In this document: piece after piece, positions 23,541 to 62,147 of the stretch
Position numbering within the stretch: the first letter of the stretch is position 1
How the letters are laid out: the number at the start of each line of letters is the position of its first letter
Assembly (NCBI RefSeq): GCF_003173595.1
Contig: NZ_QGNZ01000002.1
Location: 248,001 to 312,000, forward strand
DNA length: 64,000 nt
Source of the DNA: Pedobacter yonginensis
GTDB taxonomy: Bacteria > Bacteroidota > Bacteroidia > Sphingobacteriales > Sphingobacteriaceae
Direction: 5' to 3'
Notes under the pieces: generated by a model
The model's database searches: none
Told to the model about the DNA's origin: nothing
Seen by the model: only the letters and a program-made list of their open reading frames with translations
Made by a program: the position numbers and the translations under genes

Positions 23541-23630
23541 GATAGGTTTACGACCGACGTTTCAGCGCGCTTTAAATAATCAAGTGCGATAAACTAAACC
23601 ATCGAAATCTTGAACTTTATTACCTTAACA

Positions 23631-24938
23631 ATGAAACTATATTCAACCAACAATAAAGATTTACGTGTATCCTTTAAAGAAGCTGTTTTTAACAGCATGC
23701 CACAGGATAAAGGCTTATACATGCCTGTAGAAATACCAGCTTTAGATTCAGATTTTATCGAGAATATTGAAAAATACAGCCTACCGGAAATTGCTTACCA
23801 AGTGGCCGCAACTTTGCTAAAAGACGAGATTCCGGTGGAAGATTTGAAGGCCATTATTGAAGATGCCATTAACTTCGAAGCGCCTGCCGTAAAGTTAGAC
23901 GACCACACTTTCGTTTTGGAATTATTTCACGGACCTTCCCTAGCTTTTAAAGATTTTGGTGCTCGTTTTATGAGTAGGGTGATGGCTTATTTTTTGAAAG
24001 ATGGCGAACAGTTATTAGATGTTTTAGTAGCTACCTCTGGCGATACTGGTGGTGCCGTTGCACTGGGCTTTCTTGGTGTACCAAATACCAGAGTTACCAT
24101 TCTTTATCCAGAAGGAAAAGTTAGCCCTATACAAGAATTACAATTAACCACCAACGGTGCAAACATCAGAGCTGTAGAAGTGAAGGGTACTTTTGATGAT
24201 TGCCAAGCACTGGTTAAACAAGCTTTTGCAGATGATGAATTGAATACCAAATTCCGACTAACATCTGCAAATTCGATTAATATTTCGAGATTAATTCCGC
24301 AAACATTCTATTATTTTAACACCTATGCACAACTAAAAAAGCAAGGATTTAAAGATGTGATTTTTTCCGTACCAAGTGGAAATTTCGGAAATATCGGGGC
24401 AGGTTTATTGGCCTACAAATTAGGATTACCTGTTAAACAATTTATTGCGGCAACAAATGTAAACGATACCGTTCCTCGTTTCTTACAATCGGGTATTTAC
24501 GAAACCAAACCATCTACCCAAACCTACTCAAATGCAATGGATGTGGGTGCGCCTAGCAATTGGGTGCGGATTATGGATTTGTTTAGCGGCAACGTAGATG
24601 AACTCAAAAAAGTAGTGACCTCTTATCGCTTTGATGATGAAGAAACACTTAACGGAATTAAAGCGATTGACTCCAAATTCGATTATGTTGCTTGTCCGCA
24701 CACGGCTATTGCTTACCTAGCGATTGAAAAATTCAGAAACGAAAATCCAGATGATCAGAGTGCCGCTGTATTTCTTTCAACGGCCCATGCCTGCAAATTT
24801 CCAGATATTTTCCCTACTAACATTGCCGATAAAATTGAAATTCCGGTACAACTTAAAGCTTTAGAAAGTAAAGCAAAACATGCAGATCAATTGAGTGTAG
24901 ATTTTGAATCGTTTAAAATTTATTTATTGAATGGTTGA
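23631..24938 (+). CDS. thrC: Threonine synthase
   Basis: 435 residues from ATG 23631, chosen over a TTG seven codons upstream. It is a PLP enzyme converting O-phosphohomoserine to threonine. The family start is MKLYSTNNKDLRVSFKEAV, the PLP lysine lies in GPSLAFKDFGARF, and the phosphate-binding SGDTGGAV and SVPSGNFGNIGAG are visible. It is last in thrABC; its stop is 28 bp before the first hairpin of the repeat array, which may double as a terminator. Confidence 0.97.
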   Translation: MKLYSTNNKDLRVSFKEAVFNSMPQDKGLYMPVEIPALDSDFIENIEKYSLPEIAYQVAATLLKDEIPVEDLKAIIEDAINFEAPAVKLDDHTFVLELFHGPSLAFKDFGARFMSRVMAYFLKDGEQLLDVLVATSGDTGGAVALGFLGVPNTRVTILYPEGKVSPIQELQLTTNGANIRAVEVKGTFDDCQALVKQAFADDELNTKFRLTSANSINISRLIPQTFYYFNTYAQLKKQGFKDVIFSVPSGNFGNIGAGLLAYKLGLPVKQFIAATNVNDTVPRFLQSGIYETKPSTQTYSNAMDVGAPSNWVRIMDLFSGNVDELKKVVTSYRFDDEETLNGIKAIDSKFDYVACPHTAIAYLAIEKFRNENPDDQSAAVFLSTAHACKFPDIFPTNIADKIEIPVQLKALESKAKHADQLSVDFESFKIYLLNG

Positions 24939-24965
24939 GGTGGATTGAAAATCCCCATTTTCTTA

Positions 24966-25545
24966 GGTCGAGAAAACATTTCTCGACCAACCTAATTAAC
25001 AATTAGCTAGTCGGGATTTGCAATCCCGACTTAAGAACTAAGGATTTGTAATCCTTTATTGTATTAGAAATTCACAGTTCCACAGTCTAGAAAACAATTC
25101 TAGATCAACTTAATTATCAAAAGCTAGTCGGGATTCGTAATCCCGACTTAAGAACTAAGGATTTGTAATCTTTTATTGGATTAAAAATCCACAGTTCCAC
25201 GGTCGAGAAAACATTTCTCGACCAACCTAATTAACAAAAGCTAGTCGGGATTTGTAATCCCGACTTAAGAACTAAGGATTTGTAATCCTTTATTGCATTA
25301 TAAATCCACAGTTCCACGGTCTAGAAAACAATTCTAGATCAACTTAATTAACAAAAGCTAGTCGGGATTTGCAATCCCGACTTATGAACTAAGGATTTGT
25401 AATCCTTTAATGAATTATAGATCCACAGTTCAACGGTCGAGAAAACATTTCTCGACCAACTCAATTAACAAATAGCTAGTCGGGATTTGGAATCCCGACT
25501 TAAGAACTAAGGATTTGTAATCCTTTAATGAATCCCCTATTCAAG
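24966..25545. repeat. REP-like hairpin array, left half (about five 117-bp units)
   Basis: Tandem units of 117-118 bp. Each contains hairpin A (GTCGGGATT / AATCCCGAC, starts 25010, 25127, 25244, 25361, 25479), hairpin B (AAGGATT / AATCCTT) and hairpin C (GGTCGAGAAA / TTTCTCGACC, starts 24966, 25084, 25201, 25318, 25435). A weaker GGATTAAAAATCC hairpin is intact only in some units. Hairpin C alternates between CGAG and CTAG stem versions, with both arms changed together. The array directly follows thrC and runs into the RAYT gene. Confidence 0.95.
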
Positions 25546-25588
25546 ATCACATCAACACCGTACAAAGACCAATATTTTAAACATTAAT

Positions 25589-26131
25589 ATGGCTTTCAAA
25601 TACAATGTGACGGAACAAAATGATCTTTATTTCGTAACCATTACAGTAGTGGGTTGGATCGATGCCTTTACGCGAAAGGAACTTTCTTATGTGATAATTG
25701 ACAGCTTAAAGTTTTGTCAAGAAAAGAAAGGATTGATCCTATATTCATGGTGTTTGATGCCTAGCCATCTACACATGATTGTGAGCGCCAAGGAAGGCAA
25801 TAGACTTTCAGATATCATTAGAGACTTCAAGAAATTCACCTCAAAGCGGATTATTTCTACCCTAAAAGAAATCAATGAAAGCAGGGATTGGTTGTTGGAC
25901 AAATTTTCCTTTGCTGCAAAAACACATAGTAAAAGTAAAGAATTTAAATTTTGGCAAGATGGTTTTCATCCCATTGCACTTTATTCAAATGAATTCAAAG
26001 ATCAAAAATTAGATTATATCCACTACAATCCTGTTGAAGCGGGTATTGTAGCAGAACCCGAACATTATCTCAACAGCTCTGCAATTAATTATTCAGGTGG
26101 TTTGGGGTTAATCGATATTGTATTTTTATAG
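25589..26131 (+). CDS. REP-associated tyrosine transposase (RAYT, Y1/HUH family)
   Basis: 180 residues. HUH single-strand transposase related to IS200/IS605 TnpA. The metal-binding HUH pair is H60-L-H62 in MPSHLHMIV, and the probable catalytic tyrosine is in LDYIHYNPVEAG (Tyr143), a RAYT-type ending. Members cut and join single-stranded REP hairpins and are domesticated single-copy genes in many genomes. Here the gene lies inside an array of hairpin units, five on the left and four full plus one partial on the right, so the array is its likely substrate. The frame is intact. It replaces the second half of one unit. Confidence 0.93.
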   Translation: MAFKYNVTEQNDLYFVTITVVGWIDAFTRKELSYVIIDSLKFCQEKKGLILYSWCLMPSHLHMIVSAKEGNRLSDIIRDFKKFTSKRIISTLKEINESRDWLLDKFSFAAKTHSKSKEFKFWQDGFHPIALYSNEFKDQKLDYIHYNPVEAGIVAEPEHYLNSSAINYSGGLGLIDIVFL

Positions 26132-26154
26132 TAGAGTAGTTGAAGAATTATATG

Positions 26155-26683
26155 TGGATTAAAAAAATGCACAGACCTACGGTTAACAAAAGCTAGTCGG
26201 GATTTGCAATTCCGGCTTAAAAACTAAGGATTTGTAATCTTTTATTGGATTAAAAATCCACAGTTCCACGGTCGAGAAAACATTTCTCGACCAACGTAAT
26301 TAACAAAAAGCTAGTCGCGATTTGCAATCCCGACTTAAGAACTAAGGATTTGTAATCCTTTATTGCATTATAAATCCACAGTTCCAAGGTCGAGAAAACA
26401 TTTCTCGACCAACTTCATTAATAAAAAGCTAGTCGGGATTTGCAATCCCGGCTTAAGAGCTAAGGATTTGAAATCCTTCATTGGATTAGAAATCCAAAGT
26501 TCCACGGTCGAGAAAACATTTCTCGACCAACCTAATTAAAAATTAGCTAGTCGGGATTTGCAATCCCGGCTTAAGAACTAAGGATTTGTAATCCTTTATT
26601 GCATTATAAATCCACAGTTCCACGGTCGAGAAAACATTTCTCGACCAACCTAATTAACAAAAGCTAGTCGGAATATGCAATTC
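26155..26683. repeat. REP-like hairpin array, right half (four and a half 117-bp units)
   Basis: Same units and orientation as the left half. Hairpin A starts are at 26196, 26314, 26432, 26550 and a decayed copy at 26667. Hairpin C starts are at 26270, 26388, 26506 and 26624, all of the CGAG version. The first part (26155-26186) is a damaged remnant of the unit interrupted by the RAYT gene. The array ends at the metF stop codon (26684). Confidence 0.95.
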
Positions 26684-27637
26684 TTAAAATATCGCCTTTG
26701 CGATCCTTTTGGTTTGTTCTGGCCTGCCCATGGTGTAAAAATGCAATACTGGCGCACCAAAATCTATCAACTCCTTACATTGCTTAATCATTGCTTCAGT
26801 TCCGATTTCTTTAGCTTCTGCATTGCTTTTCGCATGAGATAGAGCATCTGTGAGTTCGTCCGGCAAATCTATATGGAAAATCTTAGGCAGAACGTTTAGT
26901 TGCGTAAGGGTACTTATCGGTTTTAAGCCTGGTATAATCGGAACATTAATATCATTCTCTCTACATTTTTTAACAAAGTCGAAATACTTCTGATTATCGA
27001 AAAACATTTGAGTAACAATAAACTCTGCGCCCATATCAACCTTCTGCTTCAAGTATTTGAAGTCGGCATTTAAATTTGGAGCCTCAAAATGCTTTTCAGG
27101 ATAGCCTGCCACACCAATACAGAAATCACTTTTAAAGGTTTCGATATCTTCATGTAAAAATTTACCATCATTGTGGTTTTTGATGTGCTGAATCAAATCC
27201 GTTGCATAGCAATGTCCGCCCTTTGTCGGGATAAATGAATGGTCTGCCGCACGGGCATCGCCCCGTAAAGCCAATACATTGTCGATTCCTAGAAACTGCA
27301 AATCTATCAAGGCATTTTCGGTTTCCTCTTTGGTGAAACCGCCACAAATCAAATGGGGTACGGCATCAATTTTATATTTATGGATAATTGCAGCGCAAAT
27401 GGCTATTGTACCAGGCCGTTTACGGTAAGAAACTTTTTGCAACAGTCCGTTTTCTTGTTCTTTATAAATGTAATCCTCCCTTAAAGATGTTACATCAATA
27501 AATGGTGGATTAAACTCCAATAGAGGATCAATGGCATCATAAATCCATTGGATGCTTTGCCCCTTAATTGGCGGTAAAAGTTCAAAAGAGAATAAGGTTT
27601 TACCCTTTGCGTTAATGATATGGTCTGTAATCTTCAT
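26684..27637 (-). CDS. metF: Methylenetetrahydrofolate reductase
   Basis: 317 residues, a TIM-barrel flavoprotein reducing 5,10-methylene-THF to 5-methyl-THF, the methyl donor for MetH just upstream. Visible marks are the FSFELLPPIKG start, DVTSLRED, HLICGGFTKEE, LALRGDAR, and QMFFDNQKYFDFV followed by IIPGLKPI. It lies 111 bp after metH in the same direction and probably shares its SAM-riboswitch-controlled transcript. Its stop codon abuts the repeat array. Confidence 0.96.
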   Translation of the reverse strand: MKITDHIINAKGKTLFSFELLPPIKGQSIQWIYDAIDPLLEFNPPFIDVTSLREDYIYKEQENGLLQKVSYRKRPGTIAICAAIIHKYKIDAVPHLICGGFTKEETENALIDLQFLGIDNVLALRGDARAADHSFIPTKGGHCYATDLIQHIKNHNDGKFLHEDIETFKSDFCIGVAGYPEKHFEAPNLNADFKYLKQKVDMGAEFIVTQMFFDNQKYFDFVKKCRENDINVPIIPGLKPISTLTQLNVLPKIFHIDLPDELTDALSHAKSNAEAKEIGTEAMIKQCKELIDFGAPVLHFYTMGRPEQTKRIAKAIF

Positions 27638-35940: not shown

Positions 35941-36439
35941 TAAACAATAGCTTAGTTTTTTTGGAAATGAACGTTCAGTAATACGACCAACCCGACAGCC
36001 CTGCTTTCCGTTATATCCCTGATGAAAAATCAGGGATGCCACTTCAATCACGTTTATGAACAAGGGTAAGCACAATAAGTTCTAGCCTATCAAAAAACTA
36101 AACGCCTTAAATCCTTTTTTGGAAATGAACGTTCAATAATACGATCAACCCGACAGCCCTGCTTTCCGTTATATCCCTGATGAAAAATCAGGGATGCCAC
36201 TTCAATCACGTTTATGAACATGGGTAAGTACAATAAGTTCTAGCCTATCAAAAAACTAAATAGCTTAAATCCTTTTTTGGAAATGAACGTTCAGTAATGC
36301 TACCAACCCGACAGCCCTGCTTTCCGTTATATCCCTGATGAAAAATCAGGGATGCCACTTCAATCACATTTATGAACAAGGGTATGTACAATAAGTATTC
36401 GCTATGCTCATGCTTGGTAGCCTATTAAAAAATTAAAAG
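35941..36439. repeat. Three 158-bp direct repeats with an internal hairpin
   Basis: The phrase GGAAATGAACGTTCA begins copies at 35963, 36121 and 36279, exactly 158 bp apart. Each copy contains the palindrome GAACGTTC and a 9-bp stem ATCCCTGAT / ATCAGGGAT with a GAAAA loop (36015, 36173 and 36331). Copies 1 and 2 differ at only a few bases; the third diverges after AATAAGT. There is no open frame in the array. It lies between the S41 peptidase and a GNAT gene. Confidence 0.95.
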
Positions 36440-61943: not shown

Positions 61944-62127
61944 GGGTAGATACGAGAAAATAGATGTGAGATACGAGAAACTAGATAGGAGAAACTAGAT
62001 GTGAGATACGAGAGATTAGACGGCTAATCTTTCCCCTCTCACGTCTCACCTCTCAAATCTTAAATCTCACGTCTCGCCTCTCAAATCTCACGTCTCAAAT
62101 CTCCAATCTCAAATCTCAAGTCTCACC
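61944..62127. repeat. Inverted heptanucleotide minisatellite
   Basis: The left half (61944-62020) is eleven 7-bp units of form NNNGAGA or NNNTAGA (for example TACGAGA, AACTAGA, TGTGAGA). The right half (62037-62127) is thirteen units of the reverse complement, TCTCNNN (TCTCACG, TCTCACC, TCTCAAA and so on). A short central palindrome, AGATTAG / CTAATCT, joins them at 62013-62030. It lies between converging genes and could form a very long imperfect hairpin. Confidence 0.9.
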
Positions 62128-62147
62128 TCTATAAACATTTTTCAATG

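Follow-up and report, generated by a model that had tools for sequence, protein, structure and literature searches.

The locus described here most closely resembles those of the REP-associated tyrosine transposases (RAYTs, TnpAREP). In E. coli and S. maltophilia, TnpAREP binds to folded, single-stranded REP DNA, which it cleaves at C|T (PMC8266576). One branch, subclass 2.6 (RAYT group 5), is found in Bacteroidota and is characterized by a length of ~179 aa, the motifs WQ and YIH[QN]NP and a median HUH-to-Tyr distance of 82 (PMC6006769); its members are not conserved in the GTAG-reading region (PMC6006769). It has already been reported that genes of this subclass are flanked by hairpins with copies elsewhere in the genome (PMC6006769), and Quentin et al. 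2018 described these hairpins only as 'atypical secondary structures' (PMC6006769). Beyond PMC6006769 and PMC3733652, we found nothing in the literature on REPs in Pedobacter or Bacteroidetes.

Here, we analyzed a 64,000-nucleotide stretch of the 4.37-Mb Pedobacter yonginensis genome (contig NZ_QGNZ01000002.1, positions 248,001 to 312,000; hereafter, the window), in which a RAYT gene is embedded in an array of hairpins. We propose, with a probability of roughly 0.8, that this locus is a REPtron, i.e. a subclass 2.6 RAYT fixed at one place together with its cognate two-hairpin REPs, which are arranged as inverted pairs in 117-bp units, with modules seeded elsewhere by action in trans and the array expanded locally at a later stage.

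A RAYT gene lies between two tandem blocks of hairpin units

In agreement with the initial annotation, which placed the array and an intact RAYT gene between thr and met genes, thrC and metF are convergent neighbors with repeats on both sides of the RAYT gene. The features are listed below in window coordinates; the D remnant ahead of the first A was assigned from the sequence.

23610-24938, plus strand: thrC (threonine synthase; TIGR00260), upstream neighbor with its 3′ end facing the array
24940-24955: remnant of hairpin D ahead of the first A; an intact D is at the equivalent place in locus L048
24966-25533: upstream tandem block of five units (A, B, C and decayed D), period 117-118
24966-24988, minus strand: hairpin A, copy 1, the long hairpin of module X
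25083 and 25318 (paired variant), 25201, 25435, 26270, 26388, 26506 and 26624: remaining copies of hairpin A
25009-25031, plus strand: hairpin B, copy 1, the long hairpin of module Y
25126, 25243, 25360, 25478, 26195, 26313, 26431 and 26549, with a truncated one near 26667: remaining copies of hairpin B
25040-25056, plus strand: hairpin C, copy 1, the short hairpin of module Y, 8 nt past B
25509-25525, plus strand: hairpin C of the last upstream unit, ~60 bp ahead of the RAYT gene
25589-26131, plus strand: RAYT (TnpAREP, Y1 HUH), 180 aa, with H60-L-H62, W122-Q123 and Y143-IHYNP
26154-26172: remnant of hairpin D in the first downstream unit, from which A is missing
26183-26681: downstream tandem block with four A, five B (the last truncated) and four C, period 118
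26684-27637, minus strand: metF (methylenetetrahydrofolate reductase), convergent downstream neighbor; TIGR00676 at 291 bits, just below the cut-off of 293.7

Tandem Repeats Finder gave a period of 117 with 4.8 copies and 90% matches for 24966-25533 and a period of 118 with 4.2 copies for 26183-26681, and the intact 180-aa open reading frame (25589-26131) sits between both blocks. Together with an alignment of the units, this bears out the spacing of 117-118 bp noted initially, and the fourth hairpin, D, which had been described as decaying, is indeed mostly decayed within the window. The alignment contains nine A hairpins (five upstream and four downstream) instead of the ten first counted, and ten B hairpins, the tenth of which is truncated at the metF end. 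In A copies 2 and 4, both arms have changed together from CGAG..CTCG to CTAG..CTAG, and because this change is paired, hairpin A is preserved in these copies. The gene had also been thought to replace half of one unit; however, in the closest relative (L048) the RAYT gene lies between two units with D-A-B-C on each side. In P. yonginensis, the first downstream unit has lost its A since then.

Two-hairpin modules in inverted orientation make up the 117-bp unit

Along each unit of 117 bp, the four hairpins D, A, B and C follow one another. From the sequences in the array and at other loci of the genome, A and D make up module X, which on the minus strand reads GTT, GGTCGAGAAA-tgt-TTTCTCGACC, GTGGAACT, GTGGATT..AATCCAC, while B and C make up module Y, which on the plus strand reads GCT, AGTCGGGATT-tgc-AATCCCGACT, TAAGAACT, AAGGATT-tgt-AATCCTT. 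X and Y follow the same plan and are related in sequence; the unit therefore consists of one two-hairpin element present twice, in opposite orientations. The plan consists of a stem of ~10 bp, a linker of 8-10 nt and a stem of ~7 bp, with 3-nt loops and a foot that is often GYT. Folded as single-stranded DNA, X and Y form two hairpins each (z of -7.1 and -5.5, respectively); the whole unit has a second folded state (z of -7.4) in which D plus its linker is base-paired to C plus its linker, and A and B protrude as arms. We conclude that a REP of this RAYT subclass comprises two hairpins, i.e. a whole module, and that two modules in inverted orientation form the 117-bp unit, i.e. a BIME or REPIN. 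What had seemed a unit more complex than BIMEs resolves to a BIME-like inverted pair, though of two-hairpin REPs.

The RAYT fits subclass 2.6 and is under purifying selection

The protein scores 107 bits with NF047646 (cut-off 80), identifying it as a REP-associated tyrosine transposase. A structural model built on 49 relatives has a mean pLDDT of 89.9 and, among solved folds, best matches the E. coli TnpAREP-REP complex (4er8), an entry that was also found by a sequence profile; phmmer with the single RAYT sequence found no PDB relative. In the 49-row alignment, the RAYT (180 aa) has WQ, YIHYNP, with Y where relatives mostly have N or Q, and a HUH-to-Tyr distance of 81. Its motifs, length, spacing and host are all in line with TnpAREP subclass 2.6 (RAYT group 5). 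E. coli TnpAREP reads GTAG through E100, H101 and R104; the RAYTs aligned here retain W and Q but show no conserved counterpart of these three residues, which fits the absence of GTAG from the modules and agrees with the lack of conservation noted for subclass 2.6 in PMC6006769. The RAYT is 86% identical to that of L048. Relative to the RAYT of the nearest relative (G007), dN is 0.081 and dN/dS 0.04, documenting purifying selection, though with a near-saturated dS of 2.1, and thrC of the same pair has the same ratio.

We also considered that the locus might be an active IS200/IS605-type insertion sequence with multiplied ends. Such an element would share the fold family, and at the RAYT loci described below the modules nearest to the RAYT gene point inward in 80 of 105 cases, as element ends do. 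However, the IS200 NCBIfam model reaches 25 bits, far below its cut-off of 55, and no set of near-identical copies was seen: this genome has one intact copy, and the gene is kept between thrC and metF in G007 and just past thrC in G001 and G004. An insertion sequence of this type is therefore a most improbable reading, and we retain that of a RAYT fixed at one place with its cognate REPs.

Two-hairpin modules flank RAYTs across Bacteroidota

For a broader view of the module, 110 RAYT loci from across Bacteroidota were sampled, with 167 kb of far flank as control. The 109 kb within 500 bp of the 110 RAYTs contained 391 hairpins of at least 7 bp, compared to 18 in the 167 kb of farther flank, and because of this difference in density chance is excluded. 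Pairs of a big and a small hairpin numbered 218 within 600 bp of the 110 RAYTs, two in the far flank (167 kb) and none in shuffled sequence. With a strict finder, the module was not found at 39 of the 110 loci, and some clades (L072, L074) have other hairpin forms. Density, spacing, clade and subclass were chosen as controls; stem covariation was left unused because it is circular where a hairpin finder picked the stems.

The modules obey a regular grammar. The distance between neighboring hairpins peaks at 8-10 nt, far commoner than any other distance; big stems are mostly of 10 bp, small stems of 7 or 6 bp and loops of 3 nt. The apex of the small stem matches that of the big stem at 3.38 of 4 bases versus 2.56 after shuffling, a value reached in 0 of 2000 shuffles. 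The three bases ahead of the big stem are GCT or GTT (the GYT foot) in 76 of 149 modules, and GT[AG]G is present within 6 nt in only two of the 149. Finally, modules are present at 25 of 29 Pedobacter loci of the RAYT's own subclass, whereas for another Y1 subclass, i.e. Pedobacter genes of ~157 aa, the figure is 1 of 20 (p = 2e-8).

Hairpin sequence follows RAYT clade

On the RAYT tree, which was built by a quick procedure and leaves many forks unresolved, the apical hairpin class (GATT, CGTT, GACN and others) changes 10 times, compared to 25.8 times when shuffled. Among 101 Pedobacter genomes, the clade-I hairpin GTCGGGATTNNNAATCCCGAC is present in 13 of the 16 with a clade-I RAYT (the exact hairpin is absent from the other three) versus 12 of the 85 others, relatedness being ignored in this as in the other genome-level tests; 23 of the 25 positive genomes hold some RAYT of this family. 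The clade-II hairpin, of which there is none in the P. yonginensis genome, occurs in each of the eight genomes to which a clade-II RAYT was assigned, with 3-11 copies each; two of these were assigned via their flanking hairpins, leaving six independent cases. P. suwonensis has two RAYTs, each with a different hairpin family. We conclude that each Bacteroidota RAYT clade is flanked by its own hairpin family and that hairpins co-vary with the RAYT; with the copies elsewhere in the genome described below, these clade-matched families support the Bacteroidota REP/RAYT system suggested initially. Of note, G035, G052 and G074 have 6-9 hairpins of clade-I type with no clade-I RAYT among the matches listed, and these hairpins may be survivors of a lost RAYT or be used by another clade.

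Alternatively, a RAYT could have settled by coincidence among ordinary host elements, the hairpins then being terminators, RNA-stabilizing structures or protein-binding sites. The module loci of the genome, window included, are mostly found past the 3′ ends of genes (8 in convergent, 6 in tandem and 1 in an apparently divergent setting), and the region contains six terminator-like sites where 1.1 are expected, both of which would suit host elements. An Rfam search returned chance matches only. Against this stand the tracking of RAYT clade by hairpin sequence, even within one genome, the near absence of modules around another Y1 subclass, and the 23 of 25 genomes in which the clade-I hairpin is accompanied by a RAYT of this family. 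Because the hairpins co-vary with the RAYT, the strict form of this coincidence is refuted, and we consider the alternative very unlikely. The related suggestion that the array ends both convergent transcripts holds up weakly: terminator-like sites are present at the hairpins, but only on the strand of metF and with interrupted T tracts.

Modules are dispersed in the genome and in relatives

Rather than being found only in the array, A and B hairpins are present at 14 further loci of this genome, so that the restriction to a single locus that was named initially as a refutation did not materialize. X-Y inverted pairs occur in the window as well as at L033, L034, L037 and L038, and in G032 a REP pair of ~105 nt recurs at several places. 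Among relatives with alignable flanks, one REP pair in G032 is absent at the same site in six species, and another is common to five species and absent from one; because of these two pairs, we conclude that REPs arise at new sites and can persist.

Arrays grow locally

In G007, the RAYT is at the same place as here but has a single unit on each side; therefore, the array is a recent local expansion that is younger than the split from G007. The RAYT lies slightly farther beyond thrC in G001 and G004, G008 has a broken RAYT and G005 hairpin remnants only, and in more distant species thrC and metF are close together with neither RAYT nor hairpins between them. Local growth is not restricted to the window: 10 of the 14 other module loci are also arrays, with periods of 52-383 bp, and tandem arrays adjoin several further RAYTs of this family. 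In four of five arrays tested, the spacers were found only in the array itself, while the fifth contains a different dispersed hairpin, and the repeated unit at L036 includes approximately the last 39 bp of the neighboring ORF. Thus, irrespective of what drives it, array growth duplicates DNA of its own locus, an argument against the export of finished 117-bp units.

Such an export was implied by the idea of a nursery locus, in which the array is the source of finished 117-bp units that spread over the genome. While the presence of the same hairpins elsewhere would be in line with this idea, the whole unit was found nowhere else in the genome (the best remote match covers 89 of 117 bases at 82%, and most cover ~50), the spacers of remote arrays are local, and the array arose after the split from G007, which has one unit per side. 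We consequently regard a nursery as scarcely credible and prefer seeding of modules followed by growth in place.

As for what drives this growth, it is probably independent of the RAYT and caused, as in any tandem repeat, by slippage during replication or by recombination of inserted modules with one another. The L033 and L041 arrays start and end with a module, as expected of unequal exchange between direct modules, and the A variants take turns along units 1-5, the pattern that would result if a two-unit stretch had doubled. However, the L040 array has no module at its right end; therefore, the first duplication there was not an exchange between two modules. A role of the RAYT itself, in which it nicks beside modules and rejoining or repair copies the module with adjoining local DNA, is possible but doubtful. 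The many arrays with locus-specific spacers, one of which holds the 3′ end of a neighboring ORF, the arrays adjoining other RAYTs of the family and the cutting of TnpAREP enzymes at C|T (PMC8266576) are consistent with this role; on the other hand, direct repeats and hairpins cause slippage and unequal recombination without a RAYT, and at L040, the only array in which the outside breakpoints were read by eye, C|T fits on one side but is one base off on the other. Separately, adjacent RAYT genes that look like duplicates, some of them interrupted by an in-frame stop, were observed at G070:C15:106405-107628, G052:C30, G034:C27, G063:C7, G004:C34 and G094:C2; here, the RAYT gene itself seems to have been caught in local tandem duplication.

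For the REPtron, we envision the following steps. The RAYT most likely binds single-stranded modules and, by homology with the TnpAREP enzymes of E. coli and S. maltophilia, would nick and rejoin the DNA next to them. By acting in trans, it would seed modules at other intergenic sites. The long array stems from later local tandem expansion, with a single unit on either side of the RAYT gene as its starting point and with the probable driver outlined above. More tentatively, subclass 2.6 RAYTs might read a bipartite GTAG-free site for which both hairpins of the module are needed, with nicking at this site driving the tandem growth of local DNA.

Other repeats and RAYT relics

A second tandem array in the window (35957-36396; 158 bp × 2.8, 95% matches) has a different hairpin, ATCCCTGATGAAAAATCAGGGAT, that looks like another dispersed element; the repeated unit of L044 contains a similar stretch, TTTTTTGGAAATGA...ACAGCCCTG. 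The spacer of L041 contains an unrelated dispersed palindrome, CTTGTTTCGTG-gaga-CACGAACCAAG, with ~35 weak matches across its own genome and no known partner gene. Short low-complexity tandem repeats of 7, 14, 21, 28 and 35 bp (AGATACGAGAAA / TCTCAAA) lie at 61947-62130 of the window. The P. yonginensis genome also has a relic of a second RAYT (L047:2465-2681; contig C1 near 482965-483180), in which the start and the C-terminal third are joined in frame (~80 aa) and which lies between GGCGCACGCGTG-type inverted repeats similar to the repeats of a different RAYT clade (L072, L073). Another RAYT fragment, from the N-terminus, is at 3316-3366 of L047.

Comparison with known systems

Subclass 2.6 is a Bacteroidota branch of RAYTs whose targets were previously described only as atypical. 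In the texts consulted, we found no description of a regular two-hairpin form, of its pairing in inverted orientation, of hairpins matched to RAYT clades inside one genus or of local arrays. The module as defined here, by two stems, linker length, foot and clade-specific sequence, offers ready matched and mismatched substrates for studying recognition by a RAYT without GTAG-reading residues, and the many local arrays form a natural series for studying how REP arrays grow.

With subclass 2.6/group 5, the system shares the length (180 vs. 179), WQ, YIHxNP, the HUH-to-Tyr distance (81 vs. a median of 82) and occurrence in Bacteroidota, as well as hairpins beside the gene with copies elsewhere and no GT[AG]G. 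It differs in that the structures in PMC6006769 were called atypical, identified by eye and weaker, whereas those reported here are regular inverted two-hairpin modules of clade-specific sequence. Compared to IS200/IS605 elements (IS608, ISDra2), the Y1 HUH fold and the hairpins on both sides of the gene are the same, but the IS200 score (25 vs. 55 bits) and the one intact copy at a conserved place are not. The fold and the HUH, W-Q and Tyr motifs are those of E. coli TnpAREP (4er8), to which the protein is 18% identical and from which it differs at E100, H101 and R104, which lack a conserved counterpart. Finally, as in the BIMEs/REPINs of enterobacteria and Pseudomonas, two inverted REPs, often in tandem, are dispersed in intergenic regions, and the whole unit can fold on itself; here, however, each REP has two hairpins, giving four per unit, and the foot is GYT and not GTAG. 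The modules are thus not canonical single-hairpin GTAG REPs, and with two hairpins per REP and a GYT foot, the unit works like a BIME but is of a non-canonical kind.
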